DNA of 64,000 bases from Verrucomicrobiota bacterium. GTDB lineage: Bacteria; Verrucomicrobiota; Verrucomicrobiia; Palsa-1439. Shown piece by piece: positions 19,597 through 44,479 of this stretch; positions within the stretch are counted from its first letter, which is position 1, and every line of letters starts with the position of its first letter. The notes beneath the pieces are model-generated. The model did no database searches. It was given only the letters and a program-made list of their open reading frames with translations, and was not told the origin of the DNA. The stretch is from the NCBI GenBank assembly GCA_003152315.1, contig PLZV01000051.1, positions 1 to 64,000 on the forward strand, written 5' to 3'. The translations under genes and the position numbers were made by a program.

Positions 19597-19630
19597 TTGC
19601 ATCGTTCTGAGAACAGGTCCGCCGGATATA

Positions 19631-20290
19631 ATGAACGAACACAAACCCGGGCGGGGACTTCTTCAACGCCGCGAGTGCCTGCTTCCGACCTGGCGAGGGT
19701 GGTTGGTGCTGTTTTTCGTCGCCGCGACTCTGGTGGTGTTCAGCATCCGGGGAGCCTACTCGTTTCTGGCAGTCAATGATCCCGTCGACAACGGCGCGCT
19801 CGTGGTGGAAGGCTGGCTGCCGGATTATGCGCTCCAGGAAGCGATCATGGAATTCGGGAGAGGTCATCACAGCCGAGTTCTCGTGACCGGTGGACCGCTG
19901 GAAAGTGGGGCGCCGCTCTCCGAATACAGGACCTTTGCCGAACTTGGCGCGGCCACCTTGCTGCGCCTCGGTCTGAACACCAATGATGTCCAAGCGGTGC
20001 CTGCACCTAGGGTCCGATTGGATCGCACCTACGCATCCGCGCTGGCCTTGAAGAACTGGTTGGGTTCGCATGGGACTGTGGAAACCAACCTCAATGTCAT
20101 CTCTCTTGGCCCTCATTCACGGCGGAGTCGACTCCTCTTCGAGAAGGCTCTGGGAAAGGACTACAAGGTCGGCATCATCGCCATCGAGAATCAGGAATAC
20201 GATGCTAGGCAGTGGTGGGCGTCGAGCGCCGGTATGCGAAGCATGTTGGACGAGATCATTGCCTACGTCTACGCCCGCTTATCGTTCTAA
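19631..20290 (+). CDS. YdcF/SanA-like DUF218 family protein
   Basis: The 219 residues have one N-terminal membrane helix (about 24-45). A DUF218-type domain follows: GALVVEGWLPDYALQEAI, RVLVTGGPLESG, RTYASALALKNWL and VISLGPHSRRSRLLFEKAL. Relatives (ElyC, SanA, YdcF) influence peptidoglycan precursor handling and envelope barrier function; the biochemical activity is not established. No strong ribosome site precedes the ATG. The protein is anchored with its domain probably in the periplasm. Confidence 0.75.
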   Translation: MNEHKPGRGLLQRRECLLPTWRGWLVLFFVAATLVVFSIRGAYSFLAVNDPVDNGALVVEGWLPDYALQEAIMEFGRGHHSRVLVTGGPLESGAPLSEYRTFAELGAATLLRLGLNTNDVQAVPAPRVRLDRTYASALALKNWLGSHGTVETNLNVISLGPHSRRSRLLFEKALGKDYKVGIIAIENQEYDARQWWASSAGMRSMLDEIIAYVYARLSF

Positions 20291-20346
20291 ACCCCCTCCA
20301 CCAACGTCCCGCCAGCCGTTACTGCGGCTGCCATTGCCATGATAAT

Positions 20347-20375
20347 TTGACCATCGGGCAGTCTTCGGGTATAAA
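20347..20375 (+). promoter_or_regulatory. strong sigma-70-type promoter of the tRNA-Ser locus
   Basis: TTGACC (20347-20352), 17-base spacer, TATAAA (20370-20375). It faces the broken tRNA-Ser 5' half at 20428, and read-through would cover the GIY-YIG gene and the intact tRNA-Ser. Confidence 0.65.
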
Positions 20376-20382
20376 TCGCAAT

Positions 20383-20399
20383 GCCGCCCTTTTGGCGGC
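20383..20399. repeat. 6-bp hairpin GCCGCC/GGCGGC ahead of the tRNA remnant
   Basis: The perfect arms at 20383-20388 and 20394-20399 have a CTTTT loop. It would lie at the start of the transcript from the promoter at 20347-20375. Confidence 0.4.
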
Positions 20400-20427
20400 C
20401 CCGTAACACTTTGCAAACAAAGTAATT

Positions 20428-20458
20428 GGAGGGGTGCCAGAGTGGTTGAACGGGCTGG
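20428..20458 (+). pseudogene. tRNA-Ser 5' half (truncated tRNA)
   Basis: The 31 bases from GGAGGGGTGCC to GGGCTGG match the acceptor 5' strand, D arm and start of the anticodon stem of a tRNA-Ser, closely resembling the intact gene at 20768. After CTGG the sequence collapses to CGCCAG, making the palindrome GGCTGGCGCCAGCC with no anticodon loop. No proper variable or T arm follows. It is therefore a tRNA remnant broken at the anticodon. Confidence 0.75.
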
Positions 20459-20528
20459 CGCCAGCCACGTTGCGGCGCAGCCGCTCACGTAGTCTCGAAC
20501 ACCCGCGCGAAAAACCATTGAAGACACA

Positions 20529-20789
20529 ATGTATTACGTTTACGTTCTGCGCAGCCTGAAATCGGGACGGTTGTACATTGGCAGCAGCGGTGATCCAGAA
20601 GCGCGGCTGGACGCTCATAATTCGGGACGGAGTCGTTGGAGCCGCAATCATCGCCCGTGGGTGAGGGTCTTGCTGGAGGAGCACACGGATTGTCCAACCG
20701 CCCAGAGGCGAGAGCGATACCTGAAGTCAGGCTGGGGACGTCGAACGCTGAAGAAGAAGATCGATGCGGAGGGGTGTCCGAGTGGTTGA
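20529..20789 (+). CDS. small GIY-YIG nuclease-domain protein ending inside tRNA-Ser
   Basis: The 86 residues are one GIY-YIG domain: YYVYVLRS and GRLYIGSS form the two GIY/YIG strands. R25 follows in DPEARLDAHNSG, and the catalytic Glu is in QRRERYLKSGWGRR. This matches the short stand-alone GIY-YIG family (COG2827 type). The last codons (GCPSG, TGA at 20787-20789) are the first 22 bases of tRNA-Ser(CGA). It therefore overlaps a structural RNA and sits between a broken and a whole copy of that tRNA, an arrangement expected of a selfish or site-specific element. Confidence 0.8.
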   Translation: MYYVYVLRSLKSGRLYIGSSGDPEARLDAHNSGRSRWSRNHRPWVRVLLEEHTDCPTAQRRERYLKSGWGRRTLKKKIDAEGCPSG

Positions 20790-20857
20790 AGGAGCTGGTC
20801 TCGAAAACCAGTAATGCCGTAAGGCATTCGTGGGTTCGAATCCCACCCCCTCCGCCA
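20768..20857 (+). tRNA. tRNA-Ser (anticodon CGA)
   Basis: Acceptor strands GGAGGGG and CCCCTCC pair fully, followed by discriminator G and an encoded CCA (20855-20857). The anticodon arm is CTGGT-CTCGAAA-ACCAG, giving anticodon CGA (serine, UCG). A long variable arm (AATGCC/GGCATT) is typical of type II tRNAs, and the T loop is GGGTTCGAATCCC. The first 22 bases also encode the end of the GIY-YIG protein. Confidence 0.97.
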
Positions 20858-44237: not shown

Positions 44238-44478
44238 CGGGTTCTGCTTACGCTCCGGGCAGTTCTTTGAGACGTTTTTGTCTCAACCACGTCGGCGCAG
44301 GGAATGCCGTGAAATTCGGCGACAGTGGCGCTGCTGTAACTGGCTACGAAAGCCCAACCCCGAAAATATTCGGGGTGAACAGCCATCCAAACGGAGAAGG
44401 CGGGCGAGTAGGTTTGCCCCGAAATACTTCGGGGTAAAAACCCAGAAGTCAGAACAACGGCCGACGTGTCATCCAACA
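44238..44478 (+). ncRNA. cobalamin riboswitch
   Basis: The core is closed by a perfect 9-bp stem, CACGTCGGC (44288-44296) with GCCGACGTG (44460-44468). Inside are the conserved elements of the cobalamin family in order: GCAGGGAA (44297-44304), hairpin GCCG-TGAAATT-CGGC (44306-44320), hairpin ACAG-TGGCGCTG-CTGT (44322-44337) followed by AA, and the 3' box GAAGTCAGAACAACGGCC (44445-44462). An upstream hairpin GAGAC/GTCTC is at 44269-44284. Two CCCCGAA/TTCGGGG hairpins sit in the variable arms. TCCTT (44480-44484) can pair with AAGGA (44492-44496) of the ribosome site, so control is probably translational. Confidence 0.88.
44357..44434. repeat. two CCCCGAA/TTCGGGG hairpins in the riboswitch periphery
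   Basis: ACCCCGAA-AATA-TTCGGGGT (44357-44376) and CCCCGAA-ATAC-TTCGGGG (44417-44434) are near-identical stems. A third copy is at 11390-11407. Their presence in variable arms of the riboswitch suggests that insertion there is tolerated. Confidence 0.7.
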
Positions 44479-44479
44479 A

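Follow-up and report, generated by a model that had tools for sequence, protein, structure and literature searches.

The only tRNA gene in the window, the 64,000-nt stretch of DNA analysed here, is a tRNA-Ser(CGA) (ARAGORN, Rfam) that carries a precise insertion containing a single-domain GIY-YIG nuclease gene and a foreign half-gene that restores the tRNA. Relatives of this nuclease gene lie beside tRNA genes across bacterial phyla, with empty sites in related genomes, a target tRNA that is inherited within clades and a palindrome at the break. The probable occupants of these loci are minimal elements of the homing type, which would cleave a tRNA gene and bring along half of it to restore the gene; in this reading we infer the cleavage, the strands involved and the repair route. 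The parts of the window locus are as follows.

20347 to 20375, + strand: promoter-like TTGACC-17 nt-TATAAA, 5' of the original tRNA; read by eye, a tentative assignment
20428 to 20458, + strand: native tRNA-Ser 5' part (positions 1-31), displaced and now a remnant; 31/31 bases identical to the tRNA of genome G002, 27/31 to the intact window copy
20459 to 20798, + strand: 340-bp insert, made up of a hairpin region, the GIY-YIG gene and the element-borne tRNA 5' half; defined by excision and joining against G002
20465 to 20492, + strand: break-point hairpin CCACGT..ACGTAG, a relative of hairpin 1 in other tRNA-Ser elements (feet CCACGT..ACGTGG in L115, L118 and L119)
20510 to 20516, + strand: AAAAACC, probably a short tRNA continuation 3' of the break, by comparison with L115, L118 and L119
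20529 to 20789, + strand: single-domain GIY-YIG nuclease gene, 86 residues; ORF list and Pfam
20768 to 20798, + strand: element-borne 5' half of the rebuilt tRNA-Ser(CGA); 4/31 bases differ from the native half, all in D-stem pairs
20768 to 20857, + strand: rebuilt intact tRNA-Ser(CGA); ARAGORN, Rfam 59 bits
20799 to 20857, + strand: native 3' part of the rebuilt tRNA; 59/59 bases identical to G002

At the same locus, a genome of the same genus (G002) has a single uninterrupted tRNA-Ser(CGA) with the same genes on both sides and without the GIY-YIG gene, the arrangement that the earlier note on this DNA had proposed to look for in relatives. When positions 20459-20798 were removed from the window and the flanks joined, the result was identical to the G002 gene at 90/90 bases, so the pairing of tRNA and nuclease gene is not a chance arrangement. 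The ends of the insert may slide by up to 5 bases, because both half copies end in GCTGG. Within its 31 bases, the rebuilt 5' half departs from the native one only at positions 10, 12, 24 and 26. These changes are compensatory in the D stem, where C10-G26 is replaced by T10-A26 and an A12/C24 mismatch by C12-G24, which indicates that the insert brought in a foreign, independently evolved working half rather than a decayed duplicate. A crude pattern search among the surveyed loci found no donor for this half. The proposal of a small element that restores a functional tRNA was supported by the excision test and by the compensated 5' half.

The layout that had been read from the letters was also confirmed: the 86-residue gene ends inside the complete tRNA-Ser(CGA), with the last 22 bases of the ORF, stop codon included, forming the first 22 bases of the tRNA, and a 31-base partial tRNA-Ser precedes it. 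The promoter call stood in part, as TTGACC and TATAAA are visible by eye but were not listed by a stricter consensus scan. G002 is missing about 830 bp directly 5' of the tRNA locus (window 19597-20427, with a 219-residue ORF), so the promoter of the window locus has no comparable counterpart there.

Presence and absence at an otherwise identical site, as for a free-standing homing endonuclease element, was thus observed with G002, and again at a tRNA-Thr locus (L213) with clean empty sites in six relatives (G010, G002, G006, G003, G004 and G001). A search for the empty site of L209 returned no clean site.

The product of the 86-codon ORF matched the Pfam GIY-YIG family (PF01541, E=6e-14), and it has all of the residues that are invariant in 62 sequences (Y5, G18, R26, H30, G33, E62 and K66), of which the conserved Tyr, Arg and Glu presumably correspond to the superfamily active site. 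An AlphaFold2 model (pLDDT 88.7) consists of a bare GIY-YIG domain, with no further domain for binding DNA. By Pfam match, invariant residues and model, the protein belongs to the GIY-YIG nuclease superfamily. Foldseek with the model gave UPF0213, Slx1 and the I-TevI catalytic domain as nearest, and sequence comparison likewise gave UPF0213 and Slx1. These nearest solved relatives share the single-domain GIY-YIG fold, although to our knowledge neither UPF0213 nor Slx1 proteins are known as tRNA-tied mobile genes. No relative of the window protein was found in plasmid, phage or viral collections, and no vehicle was identified there.

In the genome from which the window comes, six of six close homologues lie within about 140 bp of a tRNA (Ser-CGA, Pro-CGG, Ser-GGA, Pro-GGG, Pro-TGG and Met), at a chance of approximately 0.6% per homologue given 44 tRNAs in 4.89 Mb. 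The five of these other than the window gene (L002-L006, genes or fragments on contigs C56, C23, C10, C48 and C10) are beside three tRNA-Pro genes, a tRNA-Ser and a tRNA-Met, with palindrome-interrupted tRNA remnants at three of them. The five other PF01541 matches of the genome, UvrC among them, have no tRNA within 1.5 kb. As an alignment, the six proteins were too diverse for profile scanning. In named genomes of many phyla, a tRNA was present within 500 bp of 40 of the 64 homologues.

We then pooled distinct loci of homologues with E<1e-12, with tRNAs called by ARAGORN. A tRNA lay within 300 bp in 104/164 homologues, compared with about 1.6% expected, and within 50 bp in 62 of the 164; because the loci are related, these counts are not independent, but relatedness could not come near to explaining so large an excess. 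Nuclease gene and tRNA were co-oriented at every adjacent locus (104/104), and the adjacent tRNAs covered 17 isotypes. The occurrence of tRNA-adjacent GIY-YIG relatives at most isotypes and in many bacterial phyla suggests that minimal mobile elements of this kind are widespread. Had the tRNA merely been duplicated in tandem, with an ORF between the copies by chance, a 31-base direct repeat would fit, but the adjacency and shared strand in this survey refute this explanation, as do the conserved nuclease residues, the empty sites and the foreign half, and we give it practically no credence.

About one third of the wider homologues had no ARAGORN tRNA nearby. T-arm repeats persist at three such loci (L100, L191 and L219), L129 has a tRNA interrupted by a group I intron, and other loci of this group show neither feature. 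The cases that the earlier note had named as evidence against its reading, a remnant without the nuclease gene or orthologues far from any tRNA, did not occur in the clade of the window protein; the wider homologues without a detected tRNA are the exception to that picture.

Two loci of the survey involve other RNA genes or introns. L129 (2440-3060) is a tRNA-Asn locus from an Omnitrophota genome. A group I intron occupies the anticodon loop of this tRNA, and a GIY-YIG element lies at a separate position, where the 5' remnant is broken at the D arm and contains a double hairpin. L165, from Parcubacteria, is a homologue inside a 23S rRNA gene; intron-borne endonucleases lie within 23S rRNA genes.

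We considered whether the GIY-YIG gene could have arrived with an anticodon-loop group I intron whose ribozyme later disappeared. Group I introns of anticodon loops can carry endonuclease genes, L129 combines an intron and an element in one tRNA, and L165 sits in 23S rRNA. Against this reading, the insert has just ~70 non-coding bases between the break and the ORF (20459-20528), neither the window nor any of 16 well-preserved loci gave an intron match in Rfam, the intron and element of L129 are at different positions, and an intron leaves the duplicated foreign tRNA half unexplained. We regard such a degenerate intron as highly improbable, and an extant group I intron with a homing endonuclease was rejected, as there is no ribozyme around the ORF and no Rfam match in the window or the 16 related loci. 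The element resembles tRNA group I intron endonucleases in its presumed homing to a tRNA anticodon region, but an intron is spliced at the RNA level, whereas the element rebuilds the tRNA at the DNA level with a carried half and has no intron. An endonuclease of a tRNA-fMet group I intron was reportedly described by Bonocora and Shub in 2001 (cited in PMC3984707).

An integrase-type tRNA island was also rejected, since the 340-bp insert leaves no room for a tyrosine or serine recombinase gene and its sole family-matched ORF is the GIY-YIG gene. Such islands are similar in that one tRNA end is rebuilt, the displaced end forms a direct repeat and the enzyme gene lies beside the tRNA. They differ from the element, which has no integrase and no cargo, encodes a GIY-YIG enzyme and inserts inside the D, anticodon or T arms.

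Half-tRNAs are a recurrent feature of these loci. A fragment of the adjacent tRNA was present on the far side of the nuclease gene from the intact copy at 61/104 adjacent loci, and when the remnant test was run over all 116 loci, 67 were positive on the far side compared with 22 on the outer side of the tRNA, a control that also scores neighbouring tRNAs. A nuclease gene upstream of its tRNA comes with a 5' remnant and a downstream gene with a 3' remnant. This amends the reading of the earlier note: the restored piece is a 5' half here but either half across the family, and the break is marked by a palindrome. Break points recur within subfamilies, at Ser 36 (anticodon loop), Arg 22 or 32, Met 42 or 48, Ile 17 and Leu 68 (T loop), with insertion points in the anticodon, T and D arms. 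Tandem units occur at single tRNAs, with two nuclease genes in L124, L214 and L220 and three in L215.

The displaced and restored halves are identical in 33/61 remnants, in contrast to the window, where they differ at 4/31 bases. This count rules out recoding as a general immunity device, and it implies that a rebuilt tRNA should stay cuttable unless the enzyme is kept in check. Free-standing GIY-YIG enzymes of phages have been reported to cut the donor allele to a limited extent (PMC13096335).

A factor acting at the RNA level, such as a host or selfish anticodon nuclease kept in a tRNA operon for co-expression, with the half-tRNAs as decoys or by-products, would accommodate the constant co-orientation, the frequent spacing of 10 bases or less between nuclease gene and tRNA, and the many insertion points within the anticodon arm. 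However, empty sites, precise joins, a foreign restored half and tandem copies are marks of DNA mobility. The nearest solved relatives are DNA nucleases, and the GIY-YIG enzymes known to us act on DNA. We therefore consider an RNA-level role very unlikely.

To ask how the target is chosen, we mapped tRNA isotype on a tree of 158 proteins, which has few alignment columns and many unresolved forks. Isotype required 55 changes compared with 78 when shuffled, and 0/200 shuffles were as low. The window protein falls in a nine-member clade (SH-aLRT 98) in which 9/9 members are at tRNA-Ser, although five restore 5' halves and four restore 3' halves, indicating that target choice is inherited while the restored half changes. 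The suggestion that related GIY-YIG genes adjoin tRNA-Ser thus holds throughout this clade, while the family as a whole adjoins tRNAs and hits tRNA genes generally, subfamily by subfamily, beyond Ser or the anticodon.

Most remnants have a short palindrome at the break that replaces or interrupts a tRNA arm, and a few more tRNA bases often resume past it on the nuclease side. A stem of at least 7 was found at the junction or within the remnant in 50/66 cases, and in the junction window alone in 39/66, compared with 5.4% of random windows. In the Ser clade the palindromes form a double hairpin, CCACGT-stem-ACGTGGT and CGCGTT-stem-TCACGCG, followed by AAAACC, with constant feet and variable apical stems, and it folds far better than shuffled sequences (L115, z -4.4; L118, z -7.4). 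The window locus retains a recognisable copy of the first hairpin only (20465-20492), which is decayed and folds no better than shuffles. We had considered TCTCGAA (20493-20499) as tRNA resuming past this hairpin but dropped this reading, because in the alignment these bases fall on TCGCGTT, the conserved foot of hairpin 2. The palindromes are not simply repeats that abound throughout a genome: in the genome of the window there are just 18 sites of TCCCGA..TCGGGA, 5 of them at nuclease-tRNA loci. In one Cytophagales genome, 3/3 exact copies of CCTGCCTGCCGGCAGGCAGG are at nuclease-tRNA-Arg loci; the same sequence is also dispersed in other genomes, with 43 near-exact copies in one Omnitrophota.

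These palindromes raise the possibility of hairpin-directed mobility, in which a structure-specific, Slx1-like enzyme would act on hairpins or cruciforms formed by tRNA arms and junction palindromes in single-stranded or extruded DNA, and the palindromes would be a component of what moves, as with REP or IS200-type elements. The excess of stems in the remnants, the conserved feet and freely variable apical stems of the Ser-clade hairpins, and the proximity of Slx1 and UPF0213 in sequence and fold are consistent with such a route, as are breaks in anticodon, T and D arms, all of which are inverted repeats in DNA. Conversely, inheritance of the target tRNA within clades suggests sequence recognition, and the window hairpin has decayed. 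This route is the main rival to the homing-type reading, although on balance we find it rather unlikely. The broader version, that bacteria harbour widespread mobile elements of ~300-450 bp whose single-domain GIY-YIG enzyme reads folded tRNA-gene arms and palindromic ends as hairpin or cruciform DNA, and which move by a hairpin-directed route unlike classical homing, introns or integrases, is similarly doubtful.

Under the homing-type reading, the single-domain GIY-YIG nuclease, as the element's only gene product, would recognise and cut the tRNA-Ser gene at the anticodon arm. The break would be repaired by recombination from an element-bearing copy, leaving the element in the gap. The tRNA half carried beside the nuclease gene would rebuild the cut gene as a chimeric tRNA, and the native half would stay behind as a remnant. 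Relatives would act in the same way on other tRNAs and arms, restoring the 5' half when the gene is upstream or the 3' half when it is downstream, with tandem build-up possible. Self-protection is the chief difficulty for this reading, given the identical halves in 33/61 remnants; the missing DNA-binding domain, the third or so of wider homologues with no ARAGORN tRNA nearby and the negative searches of plasmid, phage and viral collections also count against it.

The closest parallels come from outside bacterial chromosomes. Mobile ORFs of fungal mitochondria, in Allomyces atp6 and in Glomus atp6, atp9, cox2 and nad3, bring a foreign duplicated gene end and produce hybrid genes, and one of the four Glomus cases has a GIY-YIG endonuclease ORF (PMC3630166). 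As in these cases, an endonuclease ORF with a foreign gene end has been inserted here to give a chimeric gene with the native end displaced. The fungal ORFs are larger and occupy mitochondrial protein genes, whereas the bacterial element is in tRNA genes, has a single 80-residue domain and break palindromes, and restores either half. The free-standing GIY-YIG enzyme SegB of phages T4 and T6 cleaves within tRNA genes, causes tandem amplification of tRNA segments and is over-represented next to the tRNAs of phages (PMC13096335). The segB gene likewise adjoins tRNA genes, but SegB has 221 residues with a C-terminal region and belongs to a phage rather than a chromosome. Membership of the window protein in the SegB group was rejected, as only the first ~26 residues align, and weakly (26 columns, hhalign probability 49%), and the T4 segB locus has no half-tRNA remnant. 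Our search of open-access papers found no account of such elements in bacterial chromosomes.

If the homing-type reading is correct, few known autonomous mobile elements would be as small as these, which consist of a gene for one 80-residue nuclease plus half of the target, and they would occupy essential tRNA genes without destroying them. They would account for GIY-YIG genes at the side of tRNAs and for protein tails encoded by tRNA sequence. Their horizontal transfer would give rise to chimeric tRNAs, and their enzymes would be compact nucleases specific for tRNA genes. Since the target tRNA changes from clade to clade, target recognition would be open to direct tests.

A second arrangement also occurs. 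Many Verrucomicrobial members lie ~80-220 bp past the tRNA CCA, lack a clear half remnant and share a conserved spacer, GCCTTCGC..GCGAAGG; these may insert at the 3' end of the tRNA. In L089, L090, L096, L185, L193 and similar Verrucomicrobial loci, a conserved spacer starting with cCTTCGC follows directly after the tRNA CCA, before the GIY-YIG gene, and is sometimes repeated past the gene. The related GIY-YIG genes of L146 and L200, where no tRNA was found, are flanked by repeats of the hairpin CCGCGTAAAAGGCTTCGCCTCACGCGG, similar to hairpin 2 of the Ser elements. Elsewhere in the window, a cobalamin riboswitch (44276-44479), narrowly over the Rfam gathering score, holds two CCCCGAA..TTCGGGG palindromes (44358 and 44417). 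In the window's own genome, L037 and L040 represent a different GIY-YIG subfamily that is not near tRNAs and has the C-terminus DPSTSSG, which is possibly encoded by a dispersed palindromic repeat. There may be a wider tie between GIY-YIG genes and palindromic repeats.
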